64,000 nucleotides of DNA from Desulfosediminicola ganghwensis (GTDB taxonomy: Bacteria; Desulfobacterota; Desulfobulbia; Desulfobulbales; Desulfocapsaceae), in contig NZ_CP050699.1 of the NCBI RefSeq assembly GCF_005116675.2, positions 4,178,001 to 4,242,000 of the forward strand. The letters are read 5' to 3'. Position 1 is the stretch's first letter; every line of letters begins with the position of its first letter. The notes beneath the pieces were generated by a model. It did not search any database. It was not told where the DNA came from and was given only the letters and a program-made list of their open reading frames with translations. A program made the translations under genes and the position numbers. This document shows positions 33,634 through 44,844 of this stretch, in pieces.

Positions 33634-33695
33634 ATATAACGAATAAGGATAGATTGTGATCGCAAAGCGATCCACAATCTTATCCGTGGTTGAAC
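33634..33695 (+). repeat. attC-like site 1
   Basis: It starts 1 nt after the lipoprotein stop. The arms at 33647-33663 and 33667-33685 pair over 17 bp with two single unpaired bases on one side, and the right end is GTTGAAC, which fits the attC core GTTRRRY. Unpaired bases are a normal sign of attC hairpins. The left box is ATATAAC, a poor match to RYYYAAC. An ordinary terminator hairpin is the alternative, but there is no T run. Confidence 0.55.
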
Positions 33696-33883
33696 AAGCC
33701 CGGCTTTTCTCCTAAGGAAATATCTTTTGAAAGTAATTACCCTGGAAGGGGGCCTTGAATTCTAGCTGTAATTATAGAGCATAGTTATCCCTTCACCTGA
33801 CAAGGTGTGAAAGAAACAGATTGTTTTCATAGACTGCATTACCTCCTGCTGAATTTATGTGAGAGCAGCGTCCAGGCTAATCA

Positions 33884-34936
33884 TTATCCTGATCTGCCGT
33901 AGTCGAATCGAAAGCGTATCACCAGCATAGCCGCCTTGCATTTTGGGCAGGAATACTTTGGCCTTTGCCGCTGTTTTGGCACTATTGGGGTAAAGACATG
34001 CAGTATAAGCTGAATGAGGGTTCTGATTTTTCTGGCATTGGCGTGCAGAAAACCGTAATCCCGCACGCGTCTGAAGCCTCTCGGCAGGACATGCTTGACC
34101 AGGATGTTCAGGAAATCCTCTGCTTTTACTGTGGAATATCTTAGCTCATCAGTCCTACTGTCACGGTACTTGAAAGTGACATTTCCGTTGTGACTTGCCA
34201 CAATATTTTTCTCGCTGATGACGCCTCGATAGAGATATCTGGCCAGATATTTCAGGGCCGGGAAGCCATTGCCCACGCATTCACAATGGGCAACCCACTT
34301 TTCAGGCAGATTTTGAGGCAGGGACAGGCCTGTTGATTTCAGCATGTCGAGGAATTTGCCGCGGAAGGTTTTGGCCAGGGCAAATCCATTGAAGAGATAG
34401 TCATTTTTCACCTTTCTCCACTTGCCGAATCGTTTATCTATACCGCCGCCAGGGATGAGTACATGAATGTGGGGGTGAAACGAGAGGTCTCGCGCGTGGG
34501 TGTGCAGGATCATGGTCATGCCGATCTCCGCTCCAAGATGTTTTGGGTTCGCAGCAAAGGATCTAAGGACTTCAGCGACGCATTTGAACATCAGGGAATA
34601 GACAGTTTTCTGGTGCCCGTATGCCAGGTATCGCAGTTCATATGGTAAGGTAAAGGTGGCCAGGAAGTAGGGGACCGGCATGAGCTTCGCCTGCTGTTTA
34701 TCAAGCCAGGAACTGGTCTGGTGATTGAGGCAGGTTGGGCAGTGGCGGTTGCCGCACGAGAGGGGGCGCCATTCTCCATGCTGGCAATCAGGGCATCGTG
34801 CATAGAGTTCGCCAGATTGAGGGGTTCGACACTGCTGTATGTCCCTCAAAGCCCTCAGTTGCTCTGGGATGGCATTGCCGCCATGACGAATCATGTACAG
34901 GTCGAAGTATTTGTTGATGAGTGATTTAATGTCCAT
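33884..34936 (-). CDS. IS91-family HUH transposase (element C)
   Basis: An N-terminal zinc finger (CPDC, then CGNRHCPTC near residue 60) and the HUH motif [10 protein letters not shown] near residue 150 are clear. YLARYLYRG near 235 holds the catalytic Tyr, and FKYRD with [16 protein letters not shown] follow. It should nick single-stranded DNA and drive rolling-circle transposition. Its start ATG overlaps the end of the recombinase gene by 11 nt. At 350 residues it is normal length. Confidence 0.9.
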
Positions 34937-35842
34937 GTTGCTTCCTCGTTGGGTTCAGCTCCATGGAATTGATCAGCTCGTTTATGGTGGCAATGCTATC
35001 CTTTTCCGCGGTGTAGGTGAGCTGGGCGTAACGGGCAGTGGTTGTGGGGCTTGAATGCCCGAGAAGTTCCTGGATGTGGCGAAGGCTTAAACCCGCTTCG
35101 AGGAGGTGGGTGGCAAAGCTGTGTCTGAGGGAGTGGATGGAGACTTTTTTTTAATGTTACAGGCTGCAACCACCGCTTTCATGGCCTGCTGGGTGGAACC
35201 GATGTTCATGTGAGAGGTTGCCCTGATGATGGTTTCAGCAGAGCCTCTATAGTTTGGGAAAAGCAGCTTGGGATGGCGATGATCCTGCCAGAGAATGCGT
35301 AATGCCTTCAGGGTTCGATCAGGCAGTGGAACCAGACGATCTTTATGTCCTTTGCCTCTGCGGATATGTACCCGTCTGCGATTGGCATCGATATCTCCGA
35401 TCTGTAAAGAAAGTGCTTCCTGTAAACGCAACCCCATGGAGTAAGTAGTAAAGAGAAAGACCCGGTAACGGAGTTTGCGCGTGTTGTGAACAAGTAAGGC
35501 AACTTCTTCTCTAGTAAGGATATCCGGGATTGTTTTCACAGTTGGTGGCTTGACGATATTGAGCCATTGCCAGTCCTGCTCCAGGACGTGCTTCCAGAAG
35601 AACATCAGGCCGAGCCTGTCGAGCTTTACCGTACTCCAGGAATAGTTTTCTACCAGACGGGTAAAATAATCTTCGAGCTGCTCCACCGACAGTTGATCTG
35701 GGCAACAATCAAAATGTTCGGTAAGACGACGAACAGCCCGGGCATAGGCGCTGATAGTTGCCTGACTCTTGCCTTGAAGCGTAAGCTTTTTCAGGTGCCG
35801 ATCGTAAAGGATTTCAAAACGTTTGGAATCTTTTGCCTTCAT
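34926..35842 (-). CDS. Tyrosine recombinase of element C, needing a -1 frameshift
   Basis: The first frame gives 251 residues: a SAM-like core-binding domain then the start of the catalytic domain ([10 protein letters not shown] holds the first Arg). It runs out just after a run of eight A on the coding strand (T run at 35145-35152), where A AAA AAG forms a standard slippery heptamer. A -1 shift there continues with [19 protein letters not shown] and the Tyr (ARYAQLTY), giving about 305 residues. The shifted frame ends 11 nt inside the transposase start. The total length fits one -1 shift exactly. Confidence 0.8.
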
Positions 35843-35923
35843 GGTATACTCCTTTTTCTGTAAGTGTCCGGAATTGGACTCTTTACTGAAGTATACTCAA
35901 GACCTCTGCCGCGTAGCGGCTTC

Positions 35924-35994
35924 GTTCAACAAGGCGCTCAAAATGGACACAAAAAGCCTAGCGGTTTTTCGGTCCATTTAGCTTAGCGTTATGT
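35924..35994 (+). repeat. attC-like site 2
   Basis: The left box GTTCAAC is a perfect match to RYYYAAC, and the right core is GTTATGT. Between them AAATGGAC and GTCCATTT pair, with weaker outer pairing and an inner AAAAAGCC/GGTTTTT hairpin. It is 71 bp long, normal for attC. The IS91-like element C abuts the left box, and its GTTC belongs to both. Confidence 0.7.
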
Positions 35995-36029
35995 GTTAAT
36001 GCATCAACAATCACCATCGAGAGAATTTA

Positions 36030-36491
36030 ATGGGAAACTATGCCAATTTCGAACCAGATTTTATTCATAGAACTGTTGCTCTGATTGAACAATATTATCA
36101 GTTTATTGAGAGTGATAACATCGAGTTTGGAAGGCAGTACAATTACACTCTGGTAATTAATTGCTTTCTTGGTTTAGTCGTCATGCCAAAAGAACGAATT
36201 GTTGACAACATACCAAACGATCAATTGTCTCTTGAGTTTAGGTCACAACTTGGCTTAGAGAACACTGAAATTCATGAAACCATAAACACATTGAGACATT
36301 TAATTCACCAGCTTCGAAATAGTGTTGCACATTTCAACATTGAAGTCTTATCCGCAGACGCTAACTTCAGAGTCGACTATTTAAAATTTAAGCACCGCAA
36401 CGGAAATACGGTTGCAAAAATTCCAGCGAATGAAATGGTTACATTTTTAAAAGCATATTCTGAAATATTATTGAACAATATTCACAATTAA
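36030..36491 (+). CDS. HEPN-domain protein in a cassette
   Basis: A small all-helical protein of 153 residues. RNSVAH (R96 to H101) is the R-x4-H motif of HEPN proteins, in the context HQLRNSVAHFN, most like the pEK499-p136 type. HEPN proteins are often RNases in toxin-antitoxin and antiphage systems. It begins 36 nt after the attC core. A second small gene follows after 12 nt in the same cassette and may be its partner. The gene is AT-rich compared with the chromosome. Confidence 0.75.
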   Translation: MGNYANFEPDFIHRTVALIEQYYQFIESDNIEFGRQYNYTLVINCFLGLVVMPKERIVDNIPNDQLSLEFRSQLGLENTEIHETINTLRHLIHQLRNSVAHFNIEVLSADANFRVDYLKFKHRNGNTVAKIPANEMVTFLKAYSEILLNNIHN

Positions 36492-36503
36492 CTCGGGATC
36501 ACA

Positions 36504-36782
36504 ATGAACAGAAAAGATGTAATGCATAATCTTATTGAGATTCTTGCATTTGAGTTACTCCAAGAAATAAAGGACCGTGAACCTCAACACAAAGACCGCT
36601 GGGTTCCTATTGCCTCAATAAATACCGAGCTTGAGCTTAAATTCCTAGCTGTACCCAAGTCAAACACTCAATACGGAGAAAAAGGTTGGCTCGTTGCAAT
36701 ATTAGTTCGCATTCTTGAAGAGAAAGATCTTGTTCAATTCAATAAGATTGGTAACAACTCATTTTATCGAACATACACATAA
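36504..36782 (+). CDS. Small protein, winged-helix-like, partner of the HEPN gene
   Basis: A 92-residue protein, 12 nt after the HEPN gene and ending inside the next attC-like site. The middle (RWVPIASINTELELKF) and the end (ILEEKDLVQFNKIGNNSFYRTY) suggest a winged helix with a final beta hairpin, but no DNA-binding motif is certain. In a two-gene HEPN cassette it could be an antitoxin or a regulator. Function is inferred. Confidence 0.6.
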   Translation: MNRKDVMHNLIEILAFELLQEIKDREPQHKDRWVPIASINTELELKFLAVPKSNTQYGEKGWLVAILVRILEEKDLVQFNKIGNNSFYRTYT

Positions 36783-36829
36783 CGCCTAAATCCAGGTAAC
36801 GCACGGCGCTCCTGATTTAGGCGTTATGC
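36777..36829 (+). repeat. attC-like site 3
   Basis: AACGCCTAAATC (36781-36792) pairs perfectly with GATTTAGGCGTT (36814-36825). Continuing inward, AGG pairs with CCT after one unpaired C. The core is GTTATGC at 36823-36829. This is the clearest attC-like site of the array, 53 bp long, and its left part overlaps the stop of the preceding gene. Confidence 0.8.
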
Positions 36830-36853
36830 TTTTTAATCAACTTAAGGAGTTTT

Positions 36854-37960
36854 ATGCCTAATCATAATCGAGATAATTTTACCCCAACAATAAAACGAAT
36901 TATGGCAGAGCGTGTTGGGTGGAAATGCTCTTTCCCAGGCTGCAACATAAACACTGTTGGTCCTGATTCAGATGATCCTACAAAGAGAATCAATAATGGA
37001 ATTGCAGCTCATATCTATGCTGCTGCACCAAATGGACCAAGATATAATCCTGAAATGACAAAGGATGAAAGACGACATATCACAAATGGTATTTGGATGT
37101 GTAGGCATCATGGGAGTCTTATTGATGCAGATTACACTGAATATTCTGCAGCAACACTGATGAAATGGAAGGAACAGGCAGAAAGAAAAACAGCTGATTC
37201 TCTTAAATATCCATCTTTAGAAGAGGACTTAAAAGAAAGTTCATTAATTCAAGTAGGCAGTAACAATATATTTCATGCTCGTTGGCAATCAATACACCAA
37301 CACAAATGGACTTTTGAAATAATTAAAACAGAAATAGGGAATATTGATACTCTCAATGAATATGTATTATCTTTCAGCACTTTTTCACAGAGCGAGCAGT
37401 ATGTAGTTTTAGAATCTCAAGGTGACGCTAGAAAAATAAAAGATATAAAGCTAACCATTACACCAGAAAACAAAAAGCAGTTAACTATTAATGTTGAAGA
37501 TAAAATAGCACCTACTGATCCTAGAGAATCTGGCTCCGATATGAAGCTTGGGCCTGATGGAGATATTTTTGTTGAAAATGGTAGCTTTGTCCATGTTTCT
37601 GGTATCGAAAATGCCAAACAAATGATCTCTGTTTGCATGAGCACCTTGAAAGGCGAAATTGAAAGCCAAAAAGAGTTAGGCTCGCTCGCAACTGAGTACT
37701 ACCATAAACACTCGGGCGATCTTCCATTATTCTCTCGACTCATAAAACTTGAGTTAATCAGACTATCTTTGATTCCAATAGAAAGGCAATACAATAAAGA
37801 GCTAAGAGCTTCGCTTCATTTTGTTAAAAGATTTATAGACGTAAAAATAGAGAGCAAAGAATTAATCCATAGCAGATTTCAAGCATCGGTTAAGCTGGAA
37901 TGGGGGCATGGTGACCAATGGAGCGGAACTATCCCAATTTTCGTGCTAACACAAACATAA
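36854..37960 (+). CDS. HNH-type protein with a gp25-like C-terminal region
   Basis: The N-terminal 110 residues form an HNH nuclease: CSFPGCNINTVG (Cys pair near residues 25 and 30), AHIYAAAPNGPRY with the first His, HITNGIWMCRHHGSLID with Asn, Cys and His near 75-90. The C-terminal half (from about residue 220) has GDIFVENGSFVHVSG, then a segment with ENAKQMISV and LKGEIESQKELGS. That order resembles gp25-type phage baseplate proteins, which is a weak, pattern-level match. It is the cargo of the next cassette. Defence or nuclease function is a guess. Confidence 0.7.
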   Translation: MPNHNRDNFTPTIKRIMAERVGWKCSFPGCNINTVGPDSDDPTKRINNGIAAHIYAAAPNGPRYNPEMTKDERRHITNGIWMCRHHGSLIDADYTEYSAATLMKWKEQAERKTADSLKYPSLEEDLKESSLIQVGSNNIFHARWQSIHQHKWTFEIIKTEIGNIDTLNEYVLSFSTFSQSEQYVVLESQGDARKIKDIKLTITPENKKQLTINVEDKIAPTDPRESGSDMKLGPDGDIFVENGSFVHVSGIENAKQMISVCMSTLKGEIESQKELGSLATEYYHKHSGDLPLFSRLIKLELIRLSLIPIERQYNKELRASLHFVKRFIDVKIESKELIHSRFQASVKLEWGHGDQWSGTIPIFVLTQT

Positions 37961-38015
37961 CAAATGTTTCACCACGTTCATTACGCTCACTGCTCGCTGA
38001 GGCTCGCCGTTGAAC
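37955..38015 (+). repeat. Possible degenerate attC site 4
   Basis: It overlaps the HNH gene stop and begins with ACATAAC, the same box as site 3. GTTGAAC at 38009-38015 fits the core. The arms pair poorly, so the site may be decayed or not an attC. Confidence 0.35.
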
Positions 38016-38476
38016 TTGCCACTTCTATTCTCTATTAACTACTATTAAGCCAAAACTTAAGATGCCTACTGTACTTCAAAGGTTGAGGAGGTGCAATATT
38101 ACCTGACCCACCAGATAGCCTCTTTGGAACATCAGCCGTTTTTGGTATTCAAGATTCATAGTAGTTCCTTTTTCAGCTAAGGCCGCTGGTTCTCTTTTGT
38201 TATTTCCCCGTTCTCGCCTGCTGTCAGGGACTTAGTCAGTAAGAGTTTGATTGCTTTGAAGTAGACCAGTTGGGCCTTATTTATGTACATGCTGTGACAA
38301 CGCCCTGCACTTTTTCTTGAAGATCTCATACGAGTTTGAGGTTAAACACACCAATGGCTACGGAGTTAATGGATAATCACTCCACGTTTATCCTTATTTG
38401 GATCAGAGTTAACTGCTTGAGTTTCATTTATAATAGAGGCTATCTGAAATTTTTCTATATCTGAAAGAGGTCCTGA
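38016..38476. other. Gene-poor stretch, nothing recognised
   Basis: About 460 bases without a supported gene. Frames on the minus strand around 38200-38340 look like a decayed coding sequence with stops, but it could not be named. Confidence 0.4.
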
Positions 38477-39247
38477 TTGGATTCTGTAAAAATAATAAAA
38501 CAAAAAGTTAATATTGCTCAAATTGTGATGGAATCTGGTGTGGAACTTAACCAAATTGGTTCTACTGGTCGATATATTGGTATTTGCCCATTTCATGAAG
38601 ATAAAAATACACTATTCAATGTGGATAGCGTTCAACAACAATTTCATTGTTTTGGATGTGGTGCGCATGGAGATGTTTATACTTTTTTAATGAAGTATAA
38701 AAATATTATGTTCAAGGATGCATTAAAAGAACTTGCAATTCGAGTTGGCGAATCTTTAGTTGGGCAGAGGCCAAAAGGTAAAAAAGAATATGAGAAAGAA
38801 CAATGTTATAAATTTATGTTACGGGCGGTAGAATATTATCATAACACATTATTTGACAAGTTCATTGGTATGGAAATTCTTGATTATCTCGAAAAAAACA
38901 ATATCACAAGAAAAATGTGCGTAAAACATAAGATTGGATATGCACCAACTCCTGAAAAATATGGATACAAATATTTGTATAATAAACTGAATTCTAGTCA
39001 ACAAATGATTGCGCTTAAAGTTGGATTAATTGCAAGAAGTAATGGTAAGGTCTACGATACATTCAGAAACAGAATCATTATCCCTATTAAACATAAAACC
39101 GGTCAATATGTTGGATTAACATCTAAAAATACTGGAAATGAGGGGCCGAAATATTTAGTGTCAAAAGAGTCCATGATTTTTAAAAAAGATCAGCAAAACG
39201 TTAAATTTTCGGAGAAATTAGCCTATATACTTTCCTGCCACGAATAA
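38477..39247 (+). pseudogene. DnaG-type primase N-terminal stub
   Basis: The N-terminus has a CHC2 zinc finger (CPFHEDKNTLF with later CFGCGAHGDV) and the start of the primase core (RNRIIIPIKHKTGQYVGLTSKN, then GPKYLVSKES). It stops at 256 residues, before the Toprim catalytic domain, and the last 15 or so residues do not look like primase. The start is a TTG with GAGG upstream. Low GC and loss of the catalytic part suggest a fragment of a mobile-element primase. A stand-alone regulatory protein is less likely. Confidence 0.6.
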
Positions 39248-39603
39248 TCCCAAAAAGTGACAAATAAGTATATAGGATCAGATCAAAAAGGAGCAACTTG
39301 AATAATAGAATTCCTAATCAAGTCTTATTGCATTTTTTGGAGTACGCGTCACAGTTTATTCATTTTATATGACTGAGCCTTAACCGTTAACTGATTGAGA
39401 TGTTCGCAGCAAAGCTCTTAGCAGTTAAATATCCTCTTAATTAAAGATATCTACTGTGAACTGAACCGCTACGCGGAAAAACCGACCAACCAGCCTCCCT
39501 TTTGTCCCACCTCTTCCAGCATGAAATTCATTTCTACCATTACTTCCTTGATTGATAAGATACTGTAGTAGCGTCCTTATCAACTCAACCAAGGAGGTGC
39601 GTC

Positions 39604-40475
39604 ATGAGTAGTCCGATCCGAGACGAGTTCGTCGAACACATGAATTTTCACGGTCTCACCCATGAGACCCAGCGTGGGTACATCAGTGGGGTCAGATGCC
39701 TGGCAAAGTACTACAATCAGTCCCCGGAGAAGCTGAGCAATGACCAGGTGCGGGGCTATTTCCGCCATCTGCTGCTGGAGAAAAAACTGGCATGGAGTTC
39801 ATGCAAGACCTATCTCTCAGGCATCACCTATTTCTACCGTCATATTTGCGACCGGGAGGTTGATGACCGCTTTGGCCTGCCGCCGAAACCACGGAGCAAG
39901 AAACTACCGGCCGTACTGTCAATGGAAGAAGTAGGCCGTCTTCTGGGCTGCATTGATAACCTTAAACACCGGGTTCTGCTCAAGACCATCTACAGCGCAG
40001 GGCTTAGAGTCGGGGAAGCTATTCGCCTCAAGCCGGAGCATATTGAAAGCGATCCGTCCAGGATGGTAATCAGGGTCCAACAGGGCAAGGGACGCAAGGA
40101 TCGCTATACGGTTCTGTCCAGACAGTTGCTCCCTGAACTGCGGGCCTATTGGCAGGAGTACAAGCCCAAGCTGTGGTTGTTTCCCGGCCAGAAGCCCGGA
40201 ACCCATATCAGAAGTGCTTCCGTCTCGATGATGCTCTACGCAGCTAAAAAAAAATCGGCTTAACCAGGGAATGCAGTCTCCATACTCTCAGACACAGCTT
40301 TGCCACCCACCTCCTCTATAAAGGCTACGACCTTTATACCATCAGCCAACTGCTCGGCCACAGCAACATAGAAACAACGACGATCTATCTGCATCTGGTT
40401 CCAGCCAGGTATGTCCAACTCAAGAGTCCGCTTGATCTGCTGGACGAGACGAAGGAGGGAGCAGATGAAAGATAA
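39604..40475 (+). CDS. Tyrosine recombinase of element A, needing a -1 frameshift
   Basis: The first frame gives 219 residues ending at TAA 40261-40263, shortly after a run of nine A at 40246-40254. It contains the core-binding domain and [11 protein letters not shown] with the first Arg. A -1 shift on the run continues as [15 protein letters not shown], then [16 protein letters not shown] with the catalytic Tyr, and stops at 40475. The sum of 872 nt fits one -1 shift exactly. The start has AAGGAGG upstream. Transcript slippage is an alternative mechanism. Confidence 0.8.
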
Positions 40476-41649
40476 TGGCAACACACCGGAGATTGCCGAT
40501 ATCTTTCGCAGATATGGTAAGAAATACCGGGATATGCATGTGGTGGGATCGCAGCAATATAAGGTCATGAGACGCATCGAAATATGTCGGACCGCTGCCC
40601 TTGGAGGCCATGTCGAAGCCTGTAATCATTGCGGTTATAGCCGCAACGCATATAACTCCTGCCGGGACAGACACTGTCCGAAATGCCAGACCATGGTCAA
40701 GGAGAAATGGCTCAGTGACAGAAGGACAGAACTGCTGCCTTGCCCCTATTTTCACAACGTTTTCACTTTGCCGCATGAGCTCAACCCCCTGGTTATGGGC
40801 AATAAACACATTATGCTGACTCTGCTGTTTACCGCAGTCAAAGAAACATTGCAGGTCTTCGCCCGTGATCCGCAGTGGCGCCTTGGGGGCCAACTCGGCT
40901 TCATTTCCGTGCTTCACACATGGAATCAGAAACTCATGGACCACTACCACCTGCACTGCATCATCCCGGCAGGAGTTCTTTCATTTGATCGTACAAGCTG
41001 GACCGGCACCAGAAGAAAATATTTATTCCGGGTTCAGTCATTGGCGAAGGAGTTCAAAAAACGCTATCTGGACAAGCTAGAAAGGGCACATAAGAAAAAC
41101 CTCCTTTCTTTCCCTGGCAAGGTTGCAGGGCTGCAAGAGAAAAAACAGTTCCTGACGTTCATAGAAACGTTGCGTGGCAAGCAGTGGATCACTTATGCCA
41201 AACAGCCCTTTGGTGGACCGGAACAGGTACTCGAATATCTCGGTCGCTATACCCACCGGGTGGCAATAACCAACAACCGGATCATTGCTATCGATGATGG
41301 CAAGGTTAGCTTCAGGTATCGGGACCGCAGCGACGACAATAAGGAAAAAGAACTTACCCTCAGTGCTGAAGAATTTATCAGGCGATTTCTCCTGCACGTG
41401 CTGCCGAGCGGCTTTACCAAAATCCGCTATTACGGCTTCCTGGCTCATGCTAACAAGAAAACCTGCATCGCTTTAATCCGCACCCTGATCGGTTCAGACG
41501 TCAAATATACACAGAAAACAGTGGAGACCGTTCAGGAGATGATGCTGCGCTTGACCGGCATCGACATCTGCTGCTGCCCGCAGTGCGGCAAGGGAAAGCT
41601 GGTCTATCTCAGGCCGATTACCGACCTGGCTTATGATGATAGCTCCTGA
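40465..41649 (+). CDS. IS91-family HUH transposase (element A)
   Basis: Starting at ATG 40465 after AAGGAGG, the protein has 394 residues. It has a zinc finger ([16 protein letters not shown]), the HUH motif [10 protein letters not shown] near residue 165, YLGRYTHRV near 265 with the Tyr, and [16 protein letters not shown]. It overlaps the recombinase end by 11 nt. A C-terminal [10 protein letters not shown] may be another zinc site. In-frame codons before 40465 belong to the recombinase region. Confidence 0.9.
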
Positions 41650-42011
41650 TCAGGTTTCTGTATCAGGATTTATCTAATTTCCAGATATACCGATGTTGGA
41701 TTCAACAGGATAGCTGCATCTTGCACAGGTGAAAATTGCGAGCAAATACGTGGGTGCCATGAAAAAATATACATTTTGTCGCAAAACCAGCGTCATCAAA
41801 GACCAGTTTCGCCGGCTATGCTCGAAAGACCCGCTTCTCAATCTTGCACCACGACCGATAAACAGTAATCAGGAACCGCAATTAATCCCCATAGCATAAC
41901 GTTTCCGGCCACAACTCCCCCGCAGTTCAGTTCTCAAGGTTTATCAATAATTGCAGCATGTTTTGTTGTGAATTCAAGGACTGCCAGAGCGCAACTATTG
42001 ATAAACCTATT

Positions 42012-42093
42012 CTGTGAAGATGAGGTTGCCCCTGTCTGGTGAGTGAGGTTGCCCGCTGCTGAGGCGGCTCTGAAGGGCTTCAGGAAGAAGCTC
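42012..42093. repeat. 82-bp repeat, copy 1
   Basis: This segment matches 49444-49525 with about four mismatches. It contains GAGGTTGCCC twice, 13 nt apart, so it looks like a multi-repeat end of an insertion sequence (IS21-type ends have such repeats, but the family is not proven). It separates IS91-like elements A and B. Confidence 0.55.
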
Positions 42094-42279
42094 AACTATG
42101 ACCTCTCACCACTGAGGTAAAGGTGTTCATGGAGAACTGAACCGCTACGCGGAAAAACCGACCAACCAGCCTCCCTTTTGTCCCACCTCTTCCAGCATGA
42201 AATTCATTTCTACCATTACTTTCTTGATTGATAAGATACTGTAGTAGCGTCCTTATCAACTCAACCAAGGAGGTGCGTC

Positions 42280-43151
42280 ATGAGTAGTCCGATCCGAGAC
42301 GAGTTCGTCGAACACATGAATTTTCACGGTCTCACCCATGAGACCCAGCGTGGGTACATCAGTGGGGTCAGATGCCTGGCAAAGTACTACAATAAGTCCC
42401 CGGAGAAGCTGAGCAATGACCAGGTGCGGGGCTATTTCCGCCATCTGCTGCTGGAGAAAAAACTGGCATGGAGTTCATGCAAGACCTATCTCTCAGGCAT
42501 CACCTATTTCTACCGTCATATTTGCGACCGGGAGGTTGATGACCGCTTTGGCCTGCCGCCGAAACCACGGAGCAAGAAACTACCGGCCGTACTGTCAATG
42601 GAAGAAGTAGGCCGTCTTCTGGGCTGCATTGATAACCTTAAACACCGGGTTCTGCTCAAGACCATCTACAGCGCAGGGCTTAGAGTCGGGGAAGCTATTC
42701 GCCTCAAGCCGGAGCATATTGAAAGCGATCCGTCCAGGATGGTAATCAGGGTCCAACAGGGCAAGGGACGCAAGGATCGCTATACGGTTCTGTCCAGACA
42801 GTTGCTCCCTGAACTGCGGGCCTATTGGCAGGAGTACAAGCCCAAGCTGTGGTTGTTTCCCGGCCAGAAGCCCGGAACCCATATCAGAAGTGCTTCCGTC
42901 TCGATGATGCTCTACGCAGCTAAAAAAAAATCGGCTTAACCAGGGAATGCAGTCTCCATACTCTCAGACACAGCTTTGCCACCCACCTCCTCTATAAAGG
43001 CTACGACCTTTATACCATCAGCCAACTGCTCGGCCACAGCAACATAGAAACAACGACGATCTATCTGCATCTGGTTCCAGCCAGGTATGTCCAACTCAAG
43101 AGTCCGCTTGATCTGCTGGACGAGACGAAGGAGGGAGCAGATGAAAGATAA
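42280..43151 (+). CDS. Tyrosine recombinase of element B, needing a -1 frameshift
   Basis: It has the same organisation as in element A: a first frame of 219 residues, a run of nine A at 42922-42930, and a -1 frame carrying the C-terminal RHSFAT and LLGHSN catalytic motifs to the stop at 43149-43151. One residue differs from element A within the first frame. The conservation of the run in both copies is expected from the recent copy event; the more diverged element C has an independent version of the same arrangement. Confidence 0.8.
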
Positions 43152-44325
43152 TGGCAACACACCGGAGATTGCCGATATCTTTCGCAGATATGGTAAGAAA
43201 TACCGGGATATGCATGTGGTGGGATCGCAGCAATATAAGGTCATGAGACGCATCGAAATATGTCGGACCGCTGCCCTTGGAGGCCATGTCGAAGCCTGTA
43301 ATCATTGCGGTTATAGCCGCAACGCATATAACTCCTGCCGGGACAGACACTGTCCGAAATGCCAGACCATGGTCAAGGAGAAATGGCTCAGTGACAGAAG
43401 GACAGAACTGCTGCCTTGCCCCTATTTTCACAACGTTTTCACTTTGCCGCATGAGCTTAATCCCCTGGTTATGGGCAATAAACACATTATGCTGACTCTG
43501 CTGTTTACCGCAGTCAAAGAAACATTGCAGGTCTTCGCCCGTGATCCGCAGTGGCGCCTTGGGGGCCAACTCGGCTTCATTTCCGTGCTTCACACATGGA
43601 ATCAGAAACTCATGGACCACTACCACCTGCACTGCATCATCCCGGCAGGAGTTCTTTCATTTGATCGTACAAGCTGGACCGGCACCAGAAGAAAATATTT
43701 ATTCCGGGTTCAGTCATTGGCGAAGGAGTTCAAAAAACGCTATCTGGACAAGCTAGAAAGGGCACATAAGAAAAACCTCCTTTCTTTCCCTGGCAAGGTT
43801 GCAGGGCTGCAAGAGAAAAAACAGTTCCTGACGTTCATAGAAACGTTGCGTGGCAAGCAGTGGATCACTTATGCCAAACAGCCCTTTGGTGGACCGGAAC
43901 AGGTACTCGAATATCTCGGTCGCTATACCCACCGGGTGGCAATAACCAACAACCGGATCATTGCTATCGATGATGGCAAGGTTAGCTTCAGGTATCGGGA
44001 CCGCAGCGACGACAATAAGGAAAAAGAACTTACCCTCAGTGCTGAAGAATTTATCAGGCGATTTCTCCTGCACGTGCTGCCGAGCGGCTTTACCAAAATC
44101 CGCTATTACGGCTTCCTGGCTCATGCTAACAAGAAAACCTGCATCGCTTTAATCCGCACCCTGATCGGTTCAGACGTCAAATATACACAGAAAACAGTGG
44201 AGACCGTTCAGGAGATGATGCTGCGCTTGACCGGCATCGACATCTGCTGCTGCCCGCAGTGCGGCAAGGGAAAGCTGGTCTATCTCAGGCCGATTACCGA
44301 CCTGGCTTATGATGATAGCTCCTGA
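43141..44325 (+). CDS. IS91-family HUH transposase (element B)
   Basis: Starting at ATG 43141, it encodes the same 394-residue protein as element A, with the zinc finger, HUH and Tyr motifs intact. It overlaps the recombinase by 11 nt. Both copies look functional as proteins. Confidence 0.9.
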
Positions 44326-44844
44326 TCAGGTTTCTGTATCAGGATTTATCTAATTTCCAGATATACCGATGTTGGATTCAACAGGATAGCTGCGTCTTGC
44401 ACAGGTGAAAATTGCGAGCAAATACGTGGGTGCCATGAAAAAATATACATTTTGTCGCAAAACCAGCGTCATCAAAGACCAGTTTCGCCGGCTATGCTCG
44501 AAAGCCCCCCTTCTCAATATTGCACCACGACCGTTAAACAGTAATCAGGAACCGCAATTAATCCCCATAGCATAACGTTTCCGGCCACAACTCCCCCGCA
44601 GTTCAGTTCTCAAGGTTTATCAATAATTGCAGCATGTTTTGTTGTGAATTCAAGGACTGCCAGAGCGCAACTATTGATAAACCTATTCTGTTTATCTCAA
44701 CTTTCAGACTTCTCATTTCATGTTAGGGTTAAAGAAAATTCGAACCTTCAAAATACAGAAATAACGTAATAATTAAGTAGAAGGTGTGAGCTGTATCTTT
44801 GGTAAAATTGGGCTCTTAGATATACTCTTTACGCTCGACAGAAT

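Follow-up and report, generated by a model that had tools for sequence, protein, structure and literature searches.

Three complete insertion sequence (IS) elements of the IS91 family, which we call A, B and C, lie in the window analysed here, a stretch of 64,000 nucleotides (nt) from the genome of Desulfosediminicola ganghwensis (contig NZ_CP050699.1). In each of them a tyrosine recombinase gene precedes the transposase gene and is broken where eight or nine A's follow one another, with the catalytic end of the recombinase in a different reading frame from its beginning. We conclude, with a probability of about three in four, that the recombinase is expressed by programmed recoding at this run, most likely through slippage of RNA polymerase, a reading drawn from the comparison of related sequences. 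Expression that depends on slippage is known from IS transposases; for an IS91 recombinase it is apparently unreported.

The proposed slippage site of element A is a run of nine A's at 40246..40254 on the forward strand. Element B has the same run at 42922..42930 (forward strand), and element C has eight A's followed by a G at 35145..35152 on the reverse strand. The first frame of A and B ends GCT AAA AAA AAA TCG GCT TAA; that of C reads ATT AAA AAA AAG at the break and continues for about 20 codons more. In A this first frame (39604..40263, forward, 219 amino acids) encodes a SAM-like domain and the first part of the catalytic domain (PF13495, 1.3e-17; PF00589, 1.1e-11, profile positions 3-120 of 172). 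Its counterparts are an open frame of 219 amino acids in B (42280..42939, forward) and one of 251 amino acids in C (35087..35842, reverse), the latter also recovered by domain search. The HxLRH...Y end lies one base back from the first frame in all three elements, in second frames at 40254..40475 in A (forward; stop codon at 40473-40475), 42930..43151 in B (forward, read from the letters) and 34926..35144 in C (reverse). The set of residues R...K...HxxR...Y, to which we assign the catalytic roles in these recombinases, is thereby divided between the frames: GLR and KG.KDR are invariant in the first frame of 14 relatives, and HTLRH...Y is in the second. Through both frames the recombinases measure 872, 872 and 917 nt in A, B and C, all of the form 3n-1, and the second-frame stop lies 11 nt inside the transposase ATG in each (ATGAAAGATAA, ATGGACATTAA). 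The sequence-only reading of this window had described these runs, the early end of the first frames, a catalytic end accessible only in the -1 frame and the common length and overlap, and direct reading of the letters bore out each of these descriptions.

The break recurs at one place within and between genomes. In the host genome (G000, a single contig of 5.65 Mb), the same site is present in all six A-type copies found, five of them near-identical and one decayed, and in all seven C copies found; among these copies we found no run of another length. A further decayed C-like copy (L014) has nine A's. Counting interrupted loci with a run of at least seven, the break is found in 36 genomes or records, each time at the homologous position, and five of these genomes (G000, G055, G056, G078 and G128) are single contigs. 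In one multi-copy genome (G225), six distinct places, fetched from eight full-length matches, have one common site.

To place these genes among their relatives, we searched 257 genomes of the class with A, C and a third type, D, and 395 genomes of the phylum with A and C, and added one scan of genome_contigs (the best 80 of at least 510 relatives), one of viral_contigs (46 loci) and plasmids. Many of the assemblies are fragmented drafts, and at most 30 places per genome search yielded DNA; the loci are a sample and not a census. We scored 152 distinct recombinase loci, of which 108 are in frame, 31 need a shift of -1 and 13 need a shift of +1. A run of at least eight A's before HxLRH is present in 40 of the 44 interrupted loci, compared with 2 of the 108 in-frame loci. 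Loci needing -1 have 12 runs of eight and 16 of nine; those needing +1 have one run of eight and 11 of nine. The four interrupted loci without such a run are L180 and L228, with seven A's, and L059 and L100, with no long run, whose interruptions are perhaps decay. The two in-frame carriers are L006, a decayed own copy, and L238, which has eight A's and a TAA elsewhere. Outside the scored set, L049 (Desulfopila sp. IMCC35006) has nine A's and the same break on a contig that ends soon after. A 3.4-kb contig labelled Flavobacteriaceae (L048) may be misplaced.

In-frame relatives have the same lysine-rich spot without a long run, as in AAG AAA AAA (L033) or ATC AAA AAA CAG (G128). Uninterrupted homologues without the run, which the sequence-only reading had named as grounds against its proposal, are common (no run of at least eight is present in 106 of the 108 loci in frame), yet in these lineages and sister subclades the run and the break are missing together, which supports rather than refutes the link between them. 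Matches in viral_contigs with a scored recombinase are in frame, except for L129, which is ambiguous (readings of 0 and +1, both weak). Plasmids hold 222 records related to A, all below 60% identity, and seven related to C, five of which were fetched. Four of these (L209-L212) are in-frame rows, and the fifth (L213) is in frame at the site, without a run, but falls below the score cut with a stop splitting its first part.

A tree was built by a quick method from the first-frame parts alone and holds 141 of the 152 rows; L006 was removed individually, L208 for its short length, and others, including L014 and L238, for scores below 165. A run of at least eight A's is found in 38 of its 42 interrupted rows and in none of its 99 in-frame rows, a count from which both in-frame run carriers (L006 and L238) are absent. 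Most of the interrupted genes belong to the A clade, to the C clade or to its sister, the D clade; single cases elsewhere are L031, L059 and, on long branches, L093 (Ignavibacteriota) and L100. The in-frame label changes eight times, at least five of these changes being forced by well-supported branches, and the tree needs several gains or losses of the interruption. Genome G128, of the same genus, offers a natural control: a D-clade element with four matches there (L190, L202, L226, L236, L243) is in frame and has no long A run, while the A-clade copy of that genome (L022) has nine A's and needs -1.

The out-of-frame half of the gene is under purifying selection. Over 39 interrupted genes of the three clades, the median ratio of nonsynonymous to synonymous change (pN/pS) is 0.31, 0.30 and 0.26 in the second half, against 0.35, 0.27 and 0.21 in the first, and the second half is free of stops in its own frame but would contain 98 if it were read in the first. 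In 38 of 43 interrupted loci there is no ATG, GTG or TTG between the opening of the second frame and HxLRH (five have one), and a change of frame is therefore normally the only way to the catalytic end. Synonymous codon choices also lengthen the run in two of the three clades. In the D clade ATA precedes the run in 11 of 13 genes, against 9 of 168 isoleucine codons elsewhere, and in the A clade GCA makes up 8 of 14 alanine codons before the run, against 30 of 127 elsewhere, both comparisons being uncorrected for relatedness.

The connection to the transposase is conserved in a looser form than in the window. Among 43 interrupted loci, seven of which have no long open reading frame (ORF) behind the recombinase, a start codon lies between 14 nt before and 2 nt after the end of the recombinase stop in 35 of the remaining 36, and a string of at least 4 nt resembling a Shine-Dalgarno (SD) motif accompanies 34 of those 35 start codons. 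A universal overlap of 11 nt, which holds in the window, gives way to variable overlaps elsewhere. The alignment of relatives proposed in the sequence-only reading shows the A run persisting with the break, while the exact overlap and the direction of the shift vary.

The direction of the shift bears on mechanism. The shift had been taken to be always -1, and this does not hold: the 13 interrupted loci that need +1 include 10 of 13 interrupted rows of the D clade (-1 in L180, L183 and L248; three further rows are in frame) as well as single members of the other two clades (L020 and L029 in A, L228 in C), and the tree shows seven direction changes among interrupted rows. What stands of the earlier interpretation is a conserved and selected break with a two-frame layout across clades. 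Since the direction flips while the run is kept, the conserved feature appears to be the A run, which fits slippage of RNA polymerase better than ribosomal -1 shifting. Mixed direction within a family is a criterion for transcriptional realignment (PMC3711429). Nine is the slippage-prone length in a large share of genomes, with eight suggested in some, and IS genes are the largest group of users of slippage (Baranov 2005, PMC1088944). On the nine A's of IS1447, slippage occurs at about 16% each way, and seven A's are enough (PMC6211511).

We infer that RNA polymerase slips on the run and produces mixed messages with extra or missing A's, some share of them in the frame of the catalytic end. 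Unslipped messages would yield the short protein, composed of the SAM-like DNA-binding domain and the first catalytic part; in A this product lacks HxxR and the tyrosine and should bind but not cut. Slipped messages would yield the full recombinase, with its stop codon on the transposase start. Only ribosomes in the second frame would then reach that start and could re-start there; in A, ribosomes stopping early would leave about 200 nt before the transposase, and coupling would favour slipped messages. The short protein may act as a DNA-binding brake or partner and not be a by-product.

Candidate sites for such binding precede the recombinase in two clades. The dyad TTGATAAG-16 nt-CTTATCAA lies at 39552..39583, before the ribosome site of recombinase A, and GTCC-AATTCC-GGAC lies at 35866..35879, upstream of recombinase C; either may be a recombinase site or an operator. 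In an alignment of 8 of 13 listed elements (L026, L027, L029, L030 and L050 left out), the A dyad has nine predicted pairs, six with changes on both sides, and 14 of 72 cells broken, for a covariation of +0.36, which is not favourable. The C dyad has five pairs in nine C-clade elements, four with changes on both sides, and 5 of 45 cells broken, for a covariation of -0.6. An alignment of 10 D-clade elements gave no consensus structure before the recombinase. The idea of one hairpin shared by the three clades ahead of the recombinase was considered and rejected, with none in D and weak ones in A and C.

A fuller scenario, doubtful as a whole, would have a slippage switch at the same codon in several IS91 lineages setting the ratio between a half-recombinase, able to bind DNA but catalytically dead, and a full form resembling integron integrases. 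The short form would act as a brake at its own dyad, and the rare full form would act on the folded rolling-circle strand and bring the transposase with it by coupling, one slip thus setting both enzymes.

Several observations weigh against polymerase slippage as the explanation. Independent pairs on supported branches number only five, with a mean of 3.3 showing the link between run and break, 0 going against it and 1.7 showing no difference; the sign test (p 0.125-0.5) is unable to reach significance. Comparison of closer pairs (dS 0.1-1.2) shows weaker constraint on the second half, with dN/dS of 0.12 against 0.06 for the first half in A, 0.21 against 0.08 in C, and 0.18 against 0.09 in D, though these values are still well below 1. 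C-clade genes mostly (11 of 12) have ATT ahead of the run, a codon that adds nothing to its length. Some of the +1 loci are single sequences, the flips in L020 and L228 are possibly single decayed copies, and the in-frame copy L238, with its eight A's, belongs to a clade rich in +1. In L237 (G078:C1:1796593-1800309), a D-clade element with four equal-score matches, of which one copy was read, both the recombinase and the transposase are broken; such an element probably moved in trans, its copies probably spreading without an intact recombinase of their own. Finally, among the 29 loci with a -1 requirement and at least seven A's in the run, 27 have the heptamer A_AAA_AAA or A_AAA_AAG in phase, and ribosomal -1 shifting could act there alone or additionally.

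Programmed -1 ribosomal frameshifting at these heptamers, of the kind known from dnaX and from IS3-family elements, would make the full recombinase. It suits the 31 interrupted loci with a -1 requirement. C-clade runs are mostly A8G (8 of 12 genes), which is just the length that three lysine codons with an in-phase heptamer call for. A run of the same kind, however, accompanies the 13 loci in which +1 is required, and genes of the A and D clades tend to have, just ahead of the run, a codon that makes it longer. The usual stimulators are also mostly missing: an SD-like motif upstream was found in 4 of 41 interrupted genes (2 of 99 in-frame controls), and a folded 60 nt downstream (z < -2) in 0 of 41 (4 of 99 controls), in a search that did not extend to long-range or pseudoknot stimulators. 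We consider ribosomal shifting unlikely as the explanation for the family, while it is possible that it acts additionally to slippage, most of all in the C clade.

We give little chance to phase variation, in which slippage in replication would change the run and turn the recombinase on or off between cells. Homopolymers are mutable, L238 is an in-frame relative with eight A's of copies with nine, and run lengths range from seven to nine; mixed states would be expected, however, whereas the six A-type and seven C copies of the host are uniform and the six distinct places in G225 share one site. Still less credible is translation of the second half alone, from a non-canonical AUC or AUU start coupled to the first stop, to give a two-piece recombinase. 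An AUU start for IS911 is named in a reference title, and in A the first stop falls near the opening of the second frame (the frames overlap by 13 nt), but most loci of the C and D clades have their first stop past HxLRH, at least about 60 nt after the second frame opens, and most interrupted genes, as noted above, lack a standard start before that motif. Sequencing error or decay to a pseudogene is very unlikely and the least credible alternative: homopolymers are error-prone and L059 and L100 may be such cases, but the agreement of copies in the host, the recurrence in 36 genomes or records (five of them single-contig), purifying selection on a stop-free second frame and the retained transposase overlap speak strongly against it and uphold the argument of the sequence-only reading that the same layout in a diverged copy speaks against random decay.

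Programmed slippage at the A run has close parallels in other IS elements. Those that slip at eight or nine A's (PMC1088944; IS1447, PMC6211511) likewise have a conserved run in a frame overlap and make short and fused products, and IS1447 slips both ways, as the directions here are mixed. They differ in that the gene in two frames there codes for the transposase (orfA/orfB), whereas here the HUH transposase is in one piece and a separate tyrosine recombinase is divided. Solved structures and profiles place the recombinase near the integron integrases: the best structural match of the first frame is IntI4 (PDB 2a3v, 2.5e-17), with XerA, XerC and XerD also likened, and integron integrase is the best NCBIfam profile, although the first frame alone reaches 100.4 bits of a 265-bit cut-off. 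IS91 and ISCR elements, which move by rolling-circle transposition, have the same Zn_Tnp_IS91 and Y2_Tnp transposase and a GC-rich hairpin at the left end; the elements described here have, in addition, the upstream recombinase in recoded form. Classical IS91 carries ORF121 in place of an upstream recombinase, and some IS91 members in ISfinder carry an upstream integrase. IS91-like elements on plasmids (E. coli IncC plasmid RCS41, Photobacterium and Salinivibrio plasmids) have the same gene order, and four of the five fetched records show a 4-nt overlap between the annotated end of the recombinase and the start of the transposase, but they have no run of eight or more A's and a single open frame of 293-296 amino acids. 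One of them, L209 (NZ_LT985243.1), comes from an E. coli IncC plasmid, where this in-frame relative of C is flanked by sul1/qacE-delta-1 and aadA1.

The sequence-only reading had called this mode of regulation unfamiliar for the IS91 family, and in the open-licence literature we likewise found no report of recoding of a recombinase in IS91 elements. The words IS91, integrase and recombinase are absent from the first 300,000 of the 475,107 characters of PMC5009743; integrase and recombinase are absent from PMC3711429, where the only match beginning with IS91 is IS911 in a table; and IS91 as a whole word is absent from PMC4066793. Slippage genes in general can be mistaken for pseudogenes or separate ORFs (PMC1088944), and genes of the present layout can be mistaken for pseudogenes or two ORFs; a class of regulated IS91 recombinases could be missed in this way. 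If the switch is real, slippage control would extend from IS transposases to an accessory recombinase of rolling-circle elements, and the genes would offer a compact system for probing the role of the recombinase in IS91-type transposition. A model of IS91 transposition itself has been described (PMC5714925). That the run has appeared repeatedly at one codon makes it a natural experiment in the evolution of recoding.

The elements themselves were delimited by comparing copies. Element A (39458..42015, forward, 2558 bp) was bounded from six A-type copies at unrelated sites, of which the one at 1.54 Mb is interrupted; its left end is GAACTGAACCGCTACGCGG and its right end TTGATAAACCTATTCTGT, the letters having been checked. 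Element B, its second copy (42134..44691, forward, 2558 bp), is identical to A at 2549 of 2558 positions and differs by one base over the 897 bases from the recombinase start codon. The two stand in tandem in the same orientation with 118 bp between them (42016-42133). Element C (33637..35930, reverse, 2294 bp; ends from six of seven copies compared) has the termini GTTGAACGAAGCCGCTACGCGGC on the left and CAATCTATCCTTATTCGTTA on the right and has diverged from A (31% across the stretch of the recombinase that matches). The transposase is a HUH (Y2) enzyme with a zinc-binding domain (PF04986 and PF14319 in A, C and one D-clade element). In A it spans 40465..41649 (forward; Zn_Tnp_IS91 and Y2_Tnp; NF033538, 435.5 bits, cut-off 125), in B 43141..44325 (forward; an open frame whose translation is the same protein as in A) and in C 33884..34936 (reverse; NF033538, 376.2 bits, cut-off 125). 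A GC-rich stem-loop at the left end (CCGCTACGCGG) is common to A, B and C, and by eye loop variants lie upstream of many relatives; such a stem-loop is a described feature of the IS91 family (PMC3189936). The flanks of the copies show no common target duplication by eye, and a GAAC/CAAG tetranucleotide fits some C copies only.

Between C and A, some neighbouring features were noted by eye. Within 35930-36828, the left end of C adjoins CAAGGCGCTC...GCGTTATG, which resembles an integron attC site that has been interrupted. Small ORFs flank a second palindrome of attC type at 36777-36828, and the region is perhaps a cassette array. An ORF at 38477-39247, ending about 210 nt before A, resembles the zinc-binding start of a DnaG-type primase.

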